Source of the DNA: Candidatus Lindowiibacteriota bacterium
GTDB lineage: Bacteria > Lindowbacteria > 2-12-FULL-62-27
Length of the DNA stretch: 9,496 nt
NCBI GenBank assembly: GCA_023249255.1
Contig: JAHFCY010000122.1
Coordinates: 1 to 9,496, forward strand
Direction of reading: 5' to 3'
In this document: piece after piece, positions 1,207-9,496 of the stretch
Position numbering within the stretch: the stretch's first letter is position 1
How the letters are laid out: the number at the start of each line of letters is the position of its first letter
Notes under the pieces: model-generated
What the model was told of the DNA's origin: nothing
Databases searched by the model: none
What the model saw: the letters and a program-made list of their open reading frames with translations, nothing else
Translations under genes and position numbers: made by a program

Positions 1207-2937
1207 TCACGTTGACACACGGCAGACCGTTTTCGCCGGAAATTTCATTTTCTTTTTGTCAAACAGCATGGACGAATGCTGAATAGTCGCCGCTTTCAAA
1301 TGAGAAAGCATAACTTCTATTGGATCCGCTACGGTGAATCCACTCTCCGTCGCAAGTTTCGCGTCCCTCGGCCTGATCCACAATGCCACATCGCCCGATG
1401 TCGGCTCTTTGACGAGCCACCCTGGAACGGGGTTCGGGTCGCTGTCGGATTGCCGTGCCAGCAGTCTGTTCGGCATAAACTCAAATGACGCGATTTTGCA
1501 GTCTTTGATCAGAATCTGGTATTCATTGGGGCTTAATGCCGACCAGTTTCTGATCCTGACTCTCGGCAGGCGAATCCTGTTGATTTTCAGCATTGATGTT
1601 CTTAATTCTCCAATTTCACGGATAAGTTTGGATCCCCGTTGCCCGATGATAGACAGAAGATTATCGCCGAGCGTAATTTCCAGATCGTCGGGCAATGTCT
1701 GGATATCGCCGGCGCGTCGCGCTGTCACCTTATTTGACGAGCCGAGGGGGATAATCGCTTGGGATCTGTCTCCGTTCTTAAATCGTTCATTATGGGTTAG
1801 CGCAGTTGCGACATCGTGGTAATATTTCGGCGGAATCTCCCACCCGACATAGATCTTGAAGAGGCCGCGAGCCAGCCGATCATTTTCAAAAATGGGTGTG
1901 CATTGTCCCTTGATGGTTTCCAAGACTCTCTGCACTGCTGCCCCTTCGATTTTGACGGTAACAACAGGCGCATTGATTTTGTCACCGTCGTAGGCCAGCC
2001 CAATCAGAATACTCTTTTTGGAGTCGGTCATGGCCACATCCATGACAAGCGGCGCCTCCGGGACGATGTCCCAGAGTCGTCCCCGCCTCGCGAGCGTCCG
2101 AAGCCTTTGTTGAAGCGCGGGCCTACCTACCCCATAAAGAGATTTCAGCATTTTTTCGGCGCCTTTATGCTCGATCAGCACGCTCCGAACAAATCGGTGA
2201 AATCTGCCGGGGCCGAGACTATTGAGATAGGTCACCCCAACTCGCGAACTTTCATATAGCAGATGTGCCGCTCCCTTTTTGCGAAAACGCCAAAAACATT
2301 TCTTTGCAATAAGTCGGAGACGGGCGTTAAACTCTGTCGTCATGACGCGTTGATTCCTTTGATAGGACTTGTGGGTGCGTCGATACTGCAGTTTCTCCCA
2401 TTCTTCCTGGACCCAGCAGGCCAAGCCCTCGGCGAGCCAGTTTGGATAATTATGGACTGCCTTATGCGCCCAAAAACAATGGGCCAGTTCATGGACCGCA
2501 GCGTTTTTGTTCGAATATTTTTCCCAGTGTGCAGGATGGATATTCATGTATACGATGGGGCTGAATCCACTCACATGCGCTTCCGACGACTCGGATTTTT
2601 CATCCTCCTCCGCCAGAGGACTTGCCCACGCCGGAAAAATGGATTCCGGCACTTGCCATTTTGCGAGGAAAAGCCGGATTTTAGGAGGGATCGGCCAGCG
2701 GTAGCTGTGAAACCACCGAGTTATAAATATCATGGCTTCGAAAAAGTTGTTTAAAAGATCAGAGGGAACCTCCTTCAGGCTCGGCTGCCTATATACCTCG
2801 ACAGGTGGGCGCAGGGTGGAAACAAATGTCCCGTCTCGGACGTAATATTCGGGCACCCTGTTTTGTTTAGAGAATTTGCGCCACTTCCGAGTGTTCGGCA
2901 GAATCCGGACATATTTTCTCGAACTGTTGGATATCAT
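1207..2937 (-). CDS. Metallopeptidase-like protein with C-terminal FlhA-like domain
   Basis: 576 residues from the ATG at 2937. HELAH at 149-153 followed by WLAEG (Glu170) matches zinc peptidases of the gluzincin / peptidase-MA-like kind: two His plus a downstream Glu as zinc ligands and Glu150 as base. Residues about 415-565 resemble the first cytoplasmic part of FlhA/FHIPEP export-gate proteins. Landmarks are LEITLGDNLL, LPRVRIRN, SPNEYQILIK, FMPNRLLA and FTVADPIEVMLSHLKAA, each with a clear counterpart in FlhA in the same order. The FlhA membrane half is absent and no membrane segment is visible. The open frame extends upstream to 3147, but that part overlaps the preceding gene in another frame, so I trimmed it. 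A TTG at 2949, overlapping the preceding stop as TTGA, is an equally possible start; neither has a strong ribosome-binding site. Role unknown. Confidence 0.8.
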   Translation of the reverse strand: MISNSSRKYVRILPNTRKWRKFSKQNRVPEYYVRDGTFVSTLRPPVEVYRQPSLKEVPSDLLNNFFEAMIFITRWFHSYRWPIPPKIRLFLAKWQVPESIFPAWASPLAEEDEKSESSEAHVSGFSPIVYMNIHPAHWEKYSNKNAAVHELAHCFWAHKAVHNYPNWLAEGLACWVQEEWEKLQYRRTHKSYQRNQRVMTTEFNARLRLIAKKCFWRFRKKGAAHLLYESSRVGVTYLNSLGPGRFHRFVRSVLIEHKGAEKMLKSLYGVGRPALQQRLRTLARRGRLWDIVPEAPLVMDVAMTDSKKSILIGLAYDGDKINAPVVTVKIEGAAVQRVLETIKGQCTPIFENDRLARGLFKIYVGWEIPPKYYHDVATALTHNERFKNGDRSQAIIPLGSSNKVTARRAGDIQTLPDDLEITLGDNLLSIIGQRGSKLIREIGELRTSMLKINRIRLPRVRIRNWSALSPNEYQILIKDCKIASFEFMPNRLLARQSDSDPNPVPGWLVKEPTSGDVALWIRPRDAKLATESGFTVADPIEVMLSHLKAATIQHSSMLFDKKKMKFPAKTVCRVST

Positions 2938-2945
2938 TTTCGTGA

Positions 2946-3317
2946 TCAAAAAGCCCGACTCAACGTGGCATAGGTTTGAGTCAATATACCGGTCACATCG
3001 CCTTCGGTCATTTGAACAACCGCTCCAGCGCTCAAGACCTCCGAAATCTCGTGCGGCGTAAAATCGCAATAACATCGCAAAAGAATGACCTGTTGGTTTA
3101 CCACGGGCAAATTCCCGATTTCTTCCTTCAATCGCCGCTTGAGCCACTTCCGCGACAAAGACGTCATACTATCTACGGCTGTCACCGACCGACGGTGCAG
3201 CAAGGCGAGCAACGACACAATGACCCAGGCCAATGCGCCCAAAAATGCTCGTCGAGGGCCGCGTGTCGAAAATTTATTCGAAAGATTGTTTATGAGCATG
3301 AAAAATCCGTCTTCCAT
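2946..3317 (-). CDS. Small membrane protein with sigma-region-4-like C-terminus
   Basis: 123 residues from the ATG at 3317; an ATG at 3299 is also possible. Residues 25-40 (FLGALAWVIVSLLALL) form one hydrophobic segment with Arg on both sides, a probable membrane anchor. Residues about 64-122 resemble region 4 of extracytoplasmic-function sigma factors. They include the pattern LP....Q.VILLR, a first HTH helix TPHEISEVL, and a second helix starting TEGDVTGIL, with an insertion of about six residues between the helices. Region 2, which binds core RNA polymerase and the -10 element, is missing, so this is not a complete sigma factor. It could be a membrane-held regulator or a decayed sigma gene. 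Its stop lies about ten bases before the metallopeptidase start, implying co-transcription. Confidence 0.6.
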   Translation of the reverse strand: MEDGFFMLINNLSNKFSTRGPRRAFLGALAWVIVSLLALLHRRSVTAVDSMTSLSRKWLKRRLKEEIGNLPVVNQQVILLRCYCDFTPHEISEVLSAGAVVQMTEGDVTGILTQTYATLSRAF

Positions 3318-4586: not shown

Positions 4587-5906
4587 TTGGACAAGCGGCA
4601 AAATTTTCCGAATAGTGGAGACGGCAATATAATCGTAAATACACTCCGGCGATGGCTGGCGGATCATGCTCGCGAAAAAGCCACCCGGAATATTCCGACC
4701 GACGCCTACGAAGCCCTCCTCGATTGGGCAGTCGGCCGCCTTCGTGAAAAAATCCCTTTTAGCCGGGTGTCCCCGCGCCATGCCGAAGGTGCCGATGACG
4801 GCGGCCATGAATCACCCGATCTGCCATGGATGCCTGTATACGCGCCGGCCGTTTTTGACCGGATCGCCGATCCGACACTGGGCGATCCACCGACCGGTTC
4901 CGATTCCGAAGAGCGAGCCAAATTCTATAAACAATTCTACGCTGATTTCTATTTCACTCTTGCCGAACAGTTTTTTGAGGACCGTATTTTTCCGGATAAA
5001 TCCGAGTCCGATGACGGGCTTCCCCTGCGGAATGATTTCGTAGATCAGATCAAGGTCTGTCATGGCGACGCATCGCTCCGAACGCGTCTGAAACAAAGAA
5101 TCGACTGGTGGATCGGTGATGTATGCCGGAAGAAAAACGAGTCGTCAGACTACGGCAGACTTGGAATGAGGATCCATAAAGTGTTGTCGGCCGATCCGCA
5201 AACGTTCAAAAATATCCGAAAAGCCAACAATTGGTGGGACAGCATTTGGATATTGAACCATGGGACTCCGACAACCATGACCCAGGGCGACCGGCTATAC
5301 GTATTCAGAAAAAGGTGTGAAGACGTTGCGCCGACGACATTGGCAAAAATTACCGAAAAAACCGTCCGGCCGATGGTGATCGATATTCTTAAAGCGGTGG
5401 GGGAACCGGCTGCCGTGGCGGAATTGCAAGAGATGATTTCGGAAAAAACGGGAATTCTTAGAGATGAACCGCCTCTTTCCATCGCGGAGGATGCCACGCA
5501 CGATGAAGAGGCCGTCGATTTCGCGGGGTCGTCGGTCATTCCCGAGTCGGACATGCCCGCTGATTGTCTGGTTGATCAACCTCAAACCCCAACCCTTCAA
5601 ATCTGCGCCGCGGATTTTATCCGCATGACTGGCCTGCATCGCGACCGCGAATTCTTCGCCGCGGCTTTGCGCCTGATCCAAAGCGGCCTGACCCATAAAA
5701 AGGAGTTGATCCAAAAACTGATGGCAACGGAAAAAATGGGTGAGTCGACGGTTTACGTGAAGGTTAAAAAACTGGATGCGTTGTTTGAGTTTATTTGGAG
5801 GGACAAGGCCGACCGAAGGAATTTTGTGGATGAAATGATCCGACAATTGGAACCGGGGACTGAATTTCCGTTTATCAGGGAAGGAGGGCCAGATGAACAG
5901 CGATAG
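4587..5906 (+). CDS. Hypothetical protein, 439 residues, with sigma-like and HTH-like segments
   Basis: The start is a TTG at 4587, chosen because GAGGTGA ends a few bases before it and an in-frame stop lies at 4572-4574. No family is recognised with confidence. Residues about 108-200 are helical, and the stretch ASLRTRLKQRIDWWIGDVCR (162-181) resembles the end of sigma region 2 (the FRTWL...R...D..R pattern of ECF factors). Residues about 255-290 look like a small helical domain. After an acidic linker (290-330), residues about 340-402 contain a likely helix-turn-helix (SGLTHKKELIQKLM, then STVYVKVKKLDALF). A DNA-binding or sigma-like regulator of its own operon is a reasonable guess, not a demonstrated role. 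Its end overlaps the next gene by 14 bases, so the two are translationally coupled. Confidence 0.85.
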   Translation: MDKRQNFPNSGDGNIIVNTLRRWLADHAREKATRNIPTDAYEALLDWAVGRLREKIPFSRVSPRHAEGADDGGHESPDLPWMPVYAPAVFDRIADPTLGDPPTGSDSEERAKFYKQFYADFYFTLAEQFFEDRIFPDKSESDDGLPLRNDFVDQIKVCHGDASLRTRLKQRIDWWIGDVCRKKNESSDYGRLGMRIHKVLSADPQTFKNIRKANNWWDSIWILNHGTPTTMTQGDRLYVFRKRCEDVAPTTLAKITEKTVRPMVIDILKAVGEPAAVAELQEMISEKTGILRDEPPLSIAEDATHDEEAVDFAGSSVIPESDMPADCLVDQPQTPTLQICAADFIRMTGLHRDREFFAAALRLIQSGLTHKKELIQKLMATEKMGESTVYVKVKKLDALFEFIWRDKADRRNFVDEMIRQLEPGTEFPFIREGGPDEQR

Positions 5907-7452
5907 CCGGGATGGGTCCGCGCATGATTCGGCAAAATCTGATCGTCGTAAGGAAAGGAAACAGCGCATTTTGGATTATTTTGGAAAGCTGAATGAAGGC
6001 AAACAAAGGCCGGAACCCAAACCAGGCCAGATATGGGCCCTCACCGAGGAAGCCGGAATGCCGAATCCGGTCGTGTGTCTCATTGGAAAAATATCGGGGA
6101 ACGCGACGGCTGCCCTCAAATTAGCCGAAAAGGGATCGGCGCAGATGGCAACCGACCGCGACCTGATTCTGTCCGAAGACGAGTCCGACATCGACATGCC
6201 CATCATGGTCGAATGCTGGAATCGTCTGGAAGTCCACCCGCGATTTCTTTCCCACTGTCTCGGCACACTGCCTGACCACGTTCTATTCGAAATCAAACGC
6301 ATATCCGCCGCACACACGCAGGAAATCATCACGAATCCCGCCATTGGCCGAGTCGGCCTCCCCATCCGATATCCCGGAGACGTGAGGATCCGCTTTCAAG
6401 AGCAGGAACGTGCGTTTGTGAGTACGTTGCGGGTCGAGCAAGAACGAGATGGAGAGGTGCTTCAACTCGCGGCCACCACCGACACGGCCGCCGGCTCGGC
6501 GATCTCTGCGGAGGAGTCGGACGAATTCAGCCGGATGGCCGGGGTGGTCGGGATTTTGACTCTGGACCGCGCCGGTGATTTGCACATTCAGCGGCTGGTC
6601 TACGAAAAAGGCGCTCAACCGTCGACGGAGTGGGCGCGGAACACCAAACAGGGATTGAACGCCGCGTTGACCGCCGCGAACCTGACTTTGGAAAAAATCA
6701 AGGGCGCACGAGCGGGCGGTCACACCGATTTTTATACTGTTCCATGGGGCGAAACTGAGAATATGCCTGCCGATATCGAGGGCCGCTCGCTGACACTGGC
6801 CGCCAGCCTCTGCATTCTTTCCGCCGGAGTTGATCTTCCTCTCCCCGGCATCATCGCCGTCGGCGACCTCGAAATCACCGGCAAGGTCAAGTCCGTCAAA
6901 CTCGATGATCTCATAATCAAAATTGCGGGGCTGGCGAAATCGCCGGCTCTTCAAGAGATCAAATGTTTTTTCCTGCCCAAACCGAATGAAAACGCAGTTT
7001 CAACGGAACTCGCCAAATATCCGGCCTTGGCTCGCATCACGCGATATGTCGGCACCCTTAAAGAGGCTTTCGACGCGGTATCCTGCATTCCGCGTTCCGT
7101 ATCAGTCTCAAGGGAGTGTGAGGAATCTGAAGTCGTCTCGGTATCCCGTAGCCGGTACGACTCCTTCTGGGAGAAAATCAAACAGCAGGTGGAATCCGCC
7201 GTCGAAGAGTCCGCGCAAACCGGCGGGCCGGTCCACGTGGACGTAACCGATATCAAAAAATTCGGCGTGCGCGGGAAATGGAATGCCTGCGGTAAAGTCC
7301 CTCCGGTTCCCGGTAAGCAAGATGGGATGGCGCACGGCCGCTCGTTTCAGAGATTTTTCGACTATCTGGCCGCACGCCTTCCCTTCCGATACTCGATCAA
7401 TAATTCCGGCACAACGCTGACCATTGAGGTCATTTCCAAAACGCCCTCATGA
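5893..7452 (+). CDS. LonC-like (S16 protease fold) protein with a C-terminal domain shared with the next gene
   Basis: 519 residues from the ATG at 5893, behind AGGAGGG (5882-5888). After a charged N-terminus comes PGQIW (45-49) leading a beta-rich region to about residue 125. Residues about 210-395 look like the C-terminal proteolytic fold of Lon. EGRSLTLAASLCILSAGVDL (296-315) matches the serine helix, with Ser299 in the GxS position. GDLEITGKVKSVKLDDLI (325-342) matches the TGEITLRGRV...GGL element, and CFFLPKPNE (358-366) matches the VILPKEN strand. Lon's catalytic Lys aligns near Asp339, with Lys336 and Lys343 close by, so activity is uncertain. There is no AAA+ module; RadA and ChlI-type proteins also carry this fold without proteolysis. 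Residues 421-515 recur at the start of the next protein. The stop overlaps the next start as ATGA. Confidence 0.85.
   Translation: MNSDSRDGSAHDSAKSDRRKERKQRILDYFGKLNEGKQRPEPKPGQIWALTEEAGMPNPVVCLIGKISGNATAALKLAEKGSAQMATDRDLILSEDESDIDMPIMVECWNRLEVHPRFLSHCLGTLPDHVLFEIKRISAAHTQEIITNPAIGRVGLPIRYPGDVRIRFQEQERAFVSTLRVEQERDGEVLQLAATTDTAAGSAISAEESDEFSRMAGVVGILTLDRAGDLHIQRLVYEKGAQPSTEWARNTKQGLNAALTAANLTLEKIKGARAGGHTDFYTVPWGETENMPADIEGRSLTLAASLCILSAGVDLPLPGIIAVGDLEITGKVKSVKLDDLIIKIAGLAKSPALQEIKCFFLPKPNENAVSTELAKYPALARITRYVGTLKEAFDAVSCIPRSVSVSRECEESEVVSVSRSRYDSFWEKIKQQVESAVEESAQTGGPVHVDVTDIKKFGVRGKWNACGKVPPVPGKQDGMAHGRSFQRFFDYLAARLPFRYSINNSGTTLTIEVISKTPS
7153..7437 (+). repeat. First copy of a ~95-residue domain duplicated in adjacent genes
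   Basis: This segment encodes residues 421-515 of the LonC-like protein. Conserved positions shared with the copy at 7461-7733 are YD.FW, V.SAV..SA, a D...IKK block, KQ.(G/S)MAHG.SFQ..F.YL, and YS.N..GT.LT. The match is at protein level, diverged at DNA level, so the duplication or recruitment is old. Confidence 0.85.
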
Positions 7453-9496
7453 CAAGCCAGTACGATCCGTTCTGGATGGGTATGAAGACGGCGGTGGATA
7501 GTGCAGTGGTGAAGTCGGCCGATTGCGGTACGGGCGAAATCCTCGATATCTCCGCGATTAAAAAATGCAGCCAGAACGGAAGGCAGAGCTGGTGTACGAA
7601 GGGAATCATCCCCGCCCAGAAACAAAAAGACAGTATGGCACACGGCAAATCATTTCAGGCAGTTTTTTCCTATCTTTCGAAAAAATACCAAGTTGAATAT
7701 TCCGTCAATGCGATGGGAACAATCCTGACGCTCAAGGCGCATAAAGTCGGACAGCCTTCGCCGGTTTCGGAAAATCCCCGCCCGGTCAAGCCGATTGCCG
7801 AAGGTCTACGACACGACAATAGACCAATCCCTGATTCCGAACCGATTCCGAGCGTCTGTGAAATCATCGACGACATGCTGAACCAAGGGGTCCCCCTGTT
7901 TCTCCCCTGCCATCAACACCCGGGACGAGCGTTTTTCGACTCGAAAGGATTTTTTCTAAGTGAACCGGCAAAGGAGCAGTACCAGAGCATGGCGGATAGT
8001 CCCCACATTTATATCGCGTATCAGAAATCGAGGAACAATATTTATGTCGGAAAATCCAATCAGACAGGGGGCCGATGGAAACGAAGTCATTATTATCATC
8101 TGGGTACGCTTGCCCATGAACTCCTGCATACAAAAAAGGATGATGACCAGGACCACTCGCACTGGATACCCGCATGGTTTGATTTGCCGGATCACGAATG
8201 CACAGAAGGACGCTGCATCACCCTCAAAGAAGACGTCCTGATATCTTTTCGATGCTTTCAGGACACCTTCCTGGAGAAGATCGAATATGGACTGATCGCC
8301 GAGGCGCGAAAGCGGGGAATTGCGTGTTTGAACAGGAAAATCCACCCGCGGCAGTCAGAAAGATTTTTGGAAGACGACCGTCCAGAACCTTCTCATCGAG
8401 ACAGACGAAAACTTGTGGATGCCCTTGCCCGCGAAATCGACACAACCATGCCGTCCAGGCACTTGATTTGCGCTCCGACCGGTTCGGGGAAAAGCCATTA
8501 CGCAAAGAAATTCCTTGTCGATGGGCTGTCTCGCGGCGAAAGCGGCGTCTTTGCCGTGCCGTACAAAGCGCTCGGAGCCGAGGTGGCGGAAAGCCTCAGC
8601 AAGCTCGTGCATGAGAAATGCCCGGGGTTGGACTGCGTGGTCGGCGTGCAAACAGGCGACTACGAGCCGATCCCGCTGGGTAACATTCACAAACCCCTGC
8701 TTCTTATTTGCACATACGAAAAACTGGATGCCATGAGCCGGTGTGAAGACTTGCTCCAGATTTCGCGGTTTGCCCGAATCGTTATCGATGAAGCGCACAT
8801 GATGGTTGACACCGACCGTGGGCGGCGCCTTGAATCACTTCTTGCCCGACTGACCGCTCTCCAGAAATCGGTCCCTCGAATCACTCTCTATCTCAGCGCC
8901 ACAGTCGGCAACGCCGGTGAACTCGCGTCTTTTTTGGATGCCGGACTGCACGAATACGGAAACGAATACCGCCGTTCGACGCTGAAACTTCGCCTTGAAA
9001 TGGATGCAGACAGCGTCGACCTAGCTGCCCGATATGCGCGCGAAGGAAAGTATGTTCTCGTATTCAAACCCACGCGGAAGAAAGCGCTGGAGACGGCGCG
9101 CAACGTCGCGCTCCGAATGCCCGAGGATCCGGATCTCCTGGAGCGCTACAAAAAAATAGACTTGCCCGCGACAGAAAAACCCGCCAGTCTCGACTCCCTC
9201 ATCCTGCATCGCACCGCCTATCATCATGCCGGCCTGACGCCCCGTGTCCGCAGATTCATCGAGAACGAATACCGGGACGGTTCCATTCAGGTCGTCTCCG
9301 CCACATCCACGCTTTCGGCCGGTGTCAATCTCCCCGCCGATGTATGCATCATCGATCCGCCGCTCAAGCACAAGGATAACGACATGGTTTTTCTCTCGGC
9401 ATCCGATATGCTTCAGGCGCTGGGCCGCGCGGCCCGGACGGAGGGAACGGTCGGGACAGGAATTGTCGTCTGCCCATCCGCTCTGGCCACTAACGT
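7449..9496 (+). CDS. GIY-YIG nuclease fused to Ski2-like SF2 helicase, C-terminus cut by the window edge
   Basis: 682 residues are visible without a stop. Residues 1-95 repeat the C-terminal domain of the preceding protein. After a Pro-rich linker, residues about 185-300 form a GIY-YIG-like nuclease: HIYIAY (186-191), YVG (199-201), Arg209 and a candidate metal-binding Glu279 in ExxLI. The helicase part has motif I APTGSGKS (342-349), PYKALGAE for Ia, TYEKLDAM, DEAH (447-450), SAT (483-485), HHAGL (592-596), SATSTLSAGVNLP (617-629) and QALGRAAR (656-663). HHAGL and the TYEKLDAM element are typical of Ski2-like enzymes such as Hel308. Known helicases of this class unwind DNA or RNA 3'-to-5' using ATP; the substrate here is unknown. 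The ATGA overlap couples its translation to the LonC-like gene. A role in degrading foreign nucleic acid is inferred. Confidence 0.93.
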   Translation, partial: MTSQYDPFWMGMKTAVDSAVVKSADCGTGEILDISAIKKCSQNGRQSWCTKGIIPAQKQKDSMAHGKSFQAVFSYLSKKYQVEYSVNAMGTILTLKAHKVGQPSPVSENPRPVKPIAEGLRHDNRPIPDSEPIPSVCEIIDDMLNQGVPLFLPCHQHPGRAFFDSKGFFLSEPAKEQYQSMADSPHIYIAYQKSRNNIYVGKSNQTGGRWKRSHYYHLGTLAHELLHTKKDDDQDHSHWIPAWFDLPDHECTEGRCITLKEDVLISFRCFQDTFLEKIEYGLIAEARKRGIACLNRKIHPRQSERFLEDDRPEPSHRDRRKLVDALAREIDTTMPSRHLICAPTGSGKSHYAKKFLVDGLSRGESGVFAVPYKALGAEVAESLSKLVHEKCPGLDCVVGVQTGDYEPIPLGNIHKPLLLICTYEKLDAMSRCEDLLQISRFARIVIDEAHMMVDTDRGRRLESLLARLTALQKSVPRITLYLSATVGNAGELASFLDAGLHEYGNEYRRSTLKLRLEMDADSVDLAARYAREGKYVLVFKPTRKKALETARNVALRMPEDPDLLERYKKIDLPATEKPASLDSLILHRTAYHHAGLTPRVRRFIENEYRDGSIQVVSATSTLSAGVNLPADVCIIDPPLKHKDNDMVFLSASDMLQALGRAARTEGTVGTGIVVCPSALATN
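7461..7733 (+). repeat. Second copy of the ~95-residue domain
   Basis: This segment encodes about residues 5-95 of the GIY-YIG helicase. It begins YDPFW, has AIKK, continues through DSMAHGKSFQAVFSYL and ends YSVNAMGTILTLK, in the same order as the first copy. It has three Cys in its first half (residues 26, 41 and 49) where the other copy has only one, so a conserved metal site is unlikely. Confidence 0.85.

Follow-up and report, generated by a model that had tools for sequence, protein, structure and literature searches.

What is the function of three overlapping genes in a Lindowbacteria genome whose predicted products are a sigma-like protein, a Lon-type peptidase and a nuclease-helicase? 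The genes, here called g1, g2 and g3, lie in the window, by which we mean the whole stretch of DNA that was analysed (9,496 bases), which is an entire contig (C84) of a 3.35 Mb assembly in 366 contigs. In the Calp relay of type III CRISPR, CalpL is activated by cA4 (cyclic tetra-adenylate) and cleaves the anti-sigma factor CalpT, so that the sigma factor CalpS is released (PMC11417357, PMC12751052). We put the probability at about 40% that g1-g3 form a proteolytic transcription relay of a Calp-like kind, with another sensor and with a payload that processes DNA, in which DNA-triggered Lon cleavage would free g1 and g3 would act on DNA. The elements of this relay that the analysis supports are the coupling of the genes, the Lon fold and catalytic dyad of g2, the DUF7664 domain shared by g2 and g3, the helicase and GIY-YIG residues of g3, a recurring gene order that equals CalpS-T-L, and no recognisable SAVED or CARF domain in g2 or Cas10 in the phylum sample. 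That sample consists of three Lindowbacteria genomes: the window's own (G000), G001 and G002.

Gene organization

The cluster consists of the following parts:

4587-5906, plus strand: g1, all-helical sigma-like protein in a CalpS-like position, 439 aa, TTG start (homologues, extracytoplasmic function (ECF) sigma profile, model)
5883-5888, plus strand: Shine-Dalgarno sequence of g2, GGAGGG, strong (sequence)
5893-7452, plus strand: g2, MazF-like domain, Lon peptidase without AAA+ and DUF7664, 519 aa
7449-9496, plus strand: g3, DUF7664, GIY-YIG nuclease and Ski2/Hel308-like helicase, truncated by the contig end

All three frames are open as stated. An earlier note on this DNA had described coupling by a 14-base and an ATGA overlap, and both are confirmed, between g1 and g2 (5893-5906) and between g2 and g3 (7449-7452). 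That note overlooked two features, namely that DUF7664 occurs twice, closing g2 and opening g3, and that the contig stops inside g3. The last 158 bases of the window (9339-9496) overlap bases 1-158 of contig C317 (L022) of the same genome, from which we infer that g3 continues there to base 1116, where a stop is reached in frame, for a total of 1001 aa. Because the three mismatches in this overlap all fall at third codon positions and leave the protein unchanged, they likely reflect strain variation in the sample and a helicase gene under coding constraint. Beyond the join, g3 overlaps at its end with a YaaA/DUF6884-like frame, to which a 210-aa frame is in turn ATGA-coupled, and the operon may therefore comprise five genes.

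A Lon peptidase without AAA+ behind a MazF-like domain

In the relay proposed here, g2 would supply both the anti-sigma factor and the protease. The parts of g2 concerned are:

6016-6300, plus strand: PAGQIW / MazF-like domain, CalpT-like, aa ~42-136 (hhalign)
6517-7092, plus strand: Lon (S16) peptidase domain, aa 209-400 (PDB profiles, fold match (VIA), LonA profile)
6787-6789, plus strand: codon of catalytic Ser299, aligned with the Lon serine and kept in relatives
6919-6921, plus strand: codon of catalytic Lys343, aligned with the Lon lysine and kept in full-length relatives

The Lon domain is recognised by profile matches to solved Lon domains (1xhk, E 2.3e-6), by a LonA profile (probability 97.8%) and by its predicted structure, in which residues 209-400 match the Lon fold with Z 20.6 and a root-mean-square deviation of 2.6 over 174 residues. 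Ser299 and Lys343 are conserved across five aligned full-length Lindowbacteria Lon domains, and a profile built from g2-type Lon domains retrieves true Lon proteases of many other families. A Pfam scan finds no AAA+ domain in g2. The earlier description of g2 as a LonC-like module lacking AAA+ is thus borne out.

CalpT is reportedly a MazF homologue, according to the original Calp paper. The N-domain family of g2 scores 30.5 against MazF by hhalign across 91 columns, which none of 400 shuffles reaches (maximum 23.2), and 25.1 against the N-part of CalpT (0 of 200 shuffles, maximum 16.8); these comparisons, and those of g1, rest on modest profiles of few sequences. There is no Pfam PemK match in g2.

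The sigma-like protein g1

Homologues of g1 are found in G001 (36% identity, E 7e-65) and G002 (27% identity, E 1e-11). Two stretches of g1 match the ECF sigma profile in the expected order:

4932-5147, plus strand: sigma region 2-like stretch, aa 116-187 (hhalign, ECF sigma profile columns 28-96)
5715-5804, plus strand: sigma region 4-like helix-turn-helix, aa 377-406 (second co-linear hhalign match, weak alone)

The profile score is 27.2, a value that none of 600 shuffles attains (maximum 22.8). The AlphaFold model of g1 is helical and of low confidence (pLDDT, the predicted local distance difference test, 43), and the region 4-like helix-turn-helix falls within its best-modelled part. A fold search with this model returned nothing above Z 5 and is uninformative because the model is poor. 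No match was obtained when g1 was compared directly, profile to profile, with the sigma-like gene of a related triad on G001:C41 (see below). The claim of a sigma/helix-turn-helix-like g1 thus gains modest support, from a region 2 match followed in order by a weak region 4 match.

A small sigma region 4-like frame (L112, G001:C30 161351-161557) stands immediately upstream of the g1 homologue of G001.

DUF7664 and the nuclease-helicase g3

A domain shared by g2 and g3 could link protease and payload. The relevant features are:

7150-7398, plus strand: C-terminal DUF7664 of g2 (Pfam PF24701, over cut-off at E 9.3e-7)
7449-7739, plus strand: N-terminal DUF7664 of g3 (41% identity with the g2 copy; Pfam E 0.018)
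8004-8339, plus strand: GIY-YIG nuclease domain of g3 (below the Pfam cut-off at E 0.0018; residues)
8415-9496, plus strand: superfamily 2 helicase core of g3 (Walker A K348, DEAH 447-450)
L077 124-1296 and L078 8346-9575, both minus strand: DUF7664-AGOG DNA glycosylase fusions of one other genome

The two copies align with a local score of 184, against a maximum of 53 in 2000 shuffles. Among the 386 genomes sampled, DUF7664 occurs in a single other genome, in two copies that are both fused to an AGOG N-glycosylase/DNA lyase, and none was found in plasmids. Since the domain is fused to, or in the company of, DNA-processing proteins (AGOG, nuclease-helicase), it may have a DNA-linked role.

The helicase of g3 is well supported by matches to DEAD (E 3e-19), to the PADLOC HamB models (3e-27) and to Hel308-type models (1e-33 to 1e-43). 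The GIY-YIG residues Y188, Y199, R209, E279 and N295 are all present, at a spacing that we take to be I-TevI-like. The fusion of GIY-YIG to a Ski2-like helicase proposed earlier therefore stands, with residues in place despite a Pfam match below cut-off, and the two positions singled out at that time, Lys348 and Glu279, are the Walker A lysine and the GIY-YIG glutamate. Relatives of g3 in the 386 genomes cover the helicase core only, never the DUF7664/GIY-YIG part, and those in plasmids and phages are again confined to the core.

The helicase core closest to that of g3 among the genomes sampled belongs to an unrelated genome (G333, L079 5273-9013), in which a Ski2-like helicase with a SWIM-like zinc motif lies beside a divergent HNH_2 nuclease gene.

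The unit that recurs in Lindowbacteria

If the three genes formed one system, as the earlier note had proposed, they would be expected to travel together. Homologues of g1 and of the g2 N-domain co-occur in all three Lindowbacteria genomes and are followed by Lon-like proteases, which are encoded by two tandem Lon genes on G001:C30 and by a Lon gene with tetratricopeptide repeats and a transmembrane segment (Lon-TPR-TM) on G002:C133. The helicase is present in the window's own genome only (one of three), and a fixed g1-g2-g3 trio is rejected on this count. On G001:C41 there is another triad, which opens with a sigma70-ECF-like gene (E 5e-6, below cut-off), continues with a related second gene and closes with a Lon-TPR-TM gene; the Lon relatives in the other triads match the PADLOC CARF-Lon and CRISPR-Lon models weakly. 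Judged by these sequences, the recurring unit is sigma-like/MazF-like/Lon-like rather than the trio with the helicase. Two of the triads (G002:C133 and G001:C41) adjoin Tad-pilus genes (TadE, secretin, CpaB, CpaF), and the unit therefore appears to be a general switch that controls transcription by proteolysis. A three-gene block lies next to the cassette both in G000 (on C317) and in G001, with differing relative orientation, which suggests an old location at which the downstream payload has been exchanged.

The exact architecture of the window was not found elsewhere in the 386 genomes sampled, the genome collection, plasmids or phages. A wide distribution is rejected as well, in that the g2 N-domain was detected in the genome collection on only two Lindowbacteria contigs, by a two-peptide-pattern scan that would miss distant relatives. 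No relatives of g2 were seen in plasmids, phages or viral contigs, and none of g1 or g3 in viral contigs, where the search reaches close relatives only. Carriage as phage or plasmid cargo is rejected on these results, with only the helicase core of g3 found in plasmids and phages.

Several related loci were observed in passing. In two other Lindowbacteria genomes, sigma-like/T-like/Lon-TPR-TM triads lie directly beside Tad (Flp) pilus genes (L014 8100-11853 and L013 10719-14893, both minus strand); Tad-adjacent triads could be a protease-controlled pilus switch. At L012 9155-11202, the second of two tandem Lon-like genes has a membrane segment, an unknown C-terminal domain and a weak PADLOC CARF-Lon match. 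The window's own genome also contains a broken Lon-like gene on C76 (L015 7585-8934), divergent from an ordinary PemK/MazF gene.

Proposed mechanism and alternatives

In the proposed relay, the MazF-like N-domain of g2 would keep g1 from acting. The nuclease-helicase g3 would engage an abnormal DNA state, such as phage DNA, stalled forks or lesions, and through the paired DUF7664 domains the g2 Lon peptidase would be recruited either to g3 or to that DNA. On clustering, the Ser-Lys peptidase would become active and cut its own tether or that of a neighbour; g1, once freed, would switch on transcription of the operon, and g3 would meanwhile unwind and cut the DNA. What we infer is the anti-sigma role, the cleavage event, a sensing or docking part for DUF7664, the triggering by DNA and any role in defence; a putative anti-phage function is possible. 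The fuller version is a doubtful proposition, namely a Calp-type relay that is independent of CRISPR and has its sensor swapped, with DUF7664 as a DNA-state sensor or docking domain that couples the nuclease-helicase to Lon-driven sigma release, so that damaged or invading DNA sets off both cleavage and a transcription programme. If it were true, the sigma/anti-sigma/Lon relay of type III CRISPR would be a portable signalling module, open to inputs such as DNA state and to outputs such as pili and nuclease-helicases. DUF7664 would likewise gain its first functional hypothesis, as a DNA-linked docking or sensing domain of a protease, a nuclease-helicase and a DNA glycosylase.

Several results weigh against a Calp-like relay. 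Compared directly with CalpS, g1 scores 16.0, which is not above chance (shuffle maximum 16.3). The match of the g2 N-domain to MazF is modest (hhalign probability 46%) and falls to 18.4, the chance level, once the C41 sequence is omitted; the AlphaFold model of this domain is poor and does not decide its fold, and direct comparison of CalpT with MazF failed. The T and L parts, separate in Calp, are fused into one chain in g2. The profile of g2-type Lon domains scores 85 against LonA and 40 against CalpL, and the sigma/T/Lon order common to Calp and the window may therefore be convergence. Finally, we know of no function for DUF7664.

Among the alternatives, a DNA repair or damage-response operon is rather unlikely. 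Here the Hel308-like helicase and GIY-YIG nuclease would process the cell's own stalled forks or lesions, and the Lon-like and sigma-like proteins would provide damage-inducible control, with no role against phage. The g3 helicase is indeed nearest to Hel308-type models, DUF7664 is fused elsewhere to AGOG, and in two genera the cassette has the same small block of genes beside it, as would be expected of a resident locus. The next open reading frame on C317 is YaaA/DUF6884-like, YaaA being a peroxide-stress protein. However, g3 is missing from the two other genera, which is unusual for core repair, and the HamB models also match its helicase.

The coupling of protease and nuclease genes and the DUF7664 common to both also suit a gated pair, in which g2 Lon would cleave and thereby activate g3 through the paired domains. 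There is precedent for this arrangement, since in Hachiman, AVAST and canu loci pro-nucleases are activated by proteases of the trypsin or caspase type (PMC12799240). However, the known pairs combine metallo-beta-lactamase (MBL) nucleases with trypsin or caspase proteases, no gating insertion was identified, and the Lon-like partner is present in two genomes that lack g3. A gated pair is considered improbable. Much the same low standing is given to a housekeeping sigma/anti-sigma/protease regulator that happens to lie upstream of an unrelated nuclease-helicase gene. The triads beside TadE, secretin and CpaB/CpaF are what such a regulator would look like, but the ATGA coupling of g2 to g3 and the presence of DUF7664 in both proteins argue against a chance neighbourhood.

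Other genes of the window

Further genes noticed in the window lie on the minus strand. A 646-aa frame (1207-3147) combines a region with a zinc-peptidase-like HELAH motif with soluble FlhB-C (E 1e-9) and FlhA (E 1e-21) parts, both without their membrane segments. Directly upstream of it is a small sigma-70 region 4-like frame (2946-3317). A Fic/DOC-family protein closely similar to SoFic (2-874; PADLOC 2e-46) is truncated by the contig start.

Comparison with known systems

The earlier note had named BREX as an example of defence systems with such domains; BrxL of BREX has an MCM (minichromosome maintenance) AAA+ domain, no Ser-Lys dyad and a reported sigma-helix-turn-helix-like part (PMC12839542). 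That part and a Lon-fold domain are points of likeness, but g2 has the dyad and lacks AAA+, the reverse of BrxL. PglZ, BrxC and PglX are absent among the window and C317 genes scanned. BREX is rejected on these grounds, and the Calp relay is closer.

Hachiman (HamAB) likewise pairs a Ski2-like helicase with a nuclease, but the nuclease of the window is a fused GIY-YIG, and DUF7664 and the Lon partner are extra. The HamB models cover the helicase core of g3 only and are outscored by Hel308 models. Hachiman proper is rejected because no HamA (DUF1837) was seen among the genes scanned in the window and next to it on C317. Gated nuclease-protease pairs (HamMAB, Avs, canu) also encode protease and nuclease together, but the window has Lon in place of trypsin or caspase and a GIY-YIG-helicase, with no gating insertion identified, in place of an MBL nuclease.

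CalpL loci found with the PADLOC CRISPR-Lon model have the order sigma-T-Lon, and in one of them (L121) the Lon protein carries SAVED (E 1e-18) with Cas10 next door. The window and related Lindowbacteria loci share this order, and g2 shares the AAA+-less Lon peptidase with its Ser-Lys dyad. In contrast, neither Pfam nor PADLOC detects a SAVED or CARF domain in g2 at E<=1, and DUF7664 occupies the position of the CalpL sensor. The nuclease-helicase payload g3 is an addition, g1 is not demonstrably homologous to CalpS, and the g2 Lon domain is nearer to LonA. Cas10 palm2 gave no match over cut-off in the three phylum genomes, whose assemblies are incomplete, and the matches below cut-off are probably GGDEF domains. 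Of the earlier statement that the cluster matches no system that could be named, one part stands, since the exact architecture is unseen elsewhere; the other part gives way to the Calp relay, which is alike in gene order and, modestly, in sequence. Thus, the cluster is not a member of Calp, but it resembles Calp in outline, and Calp is the closest known system.

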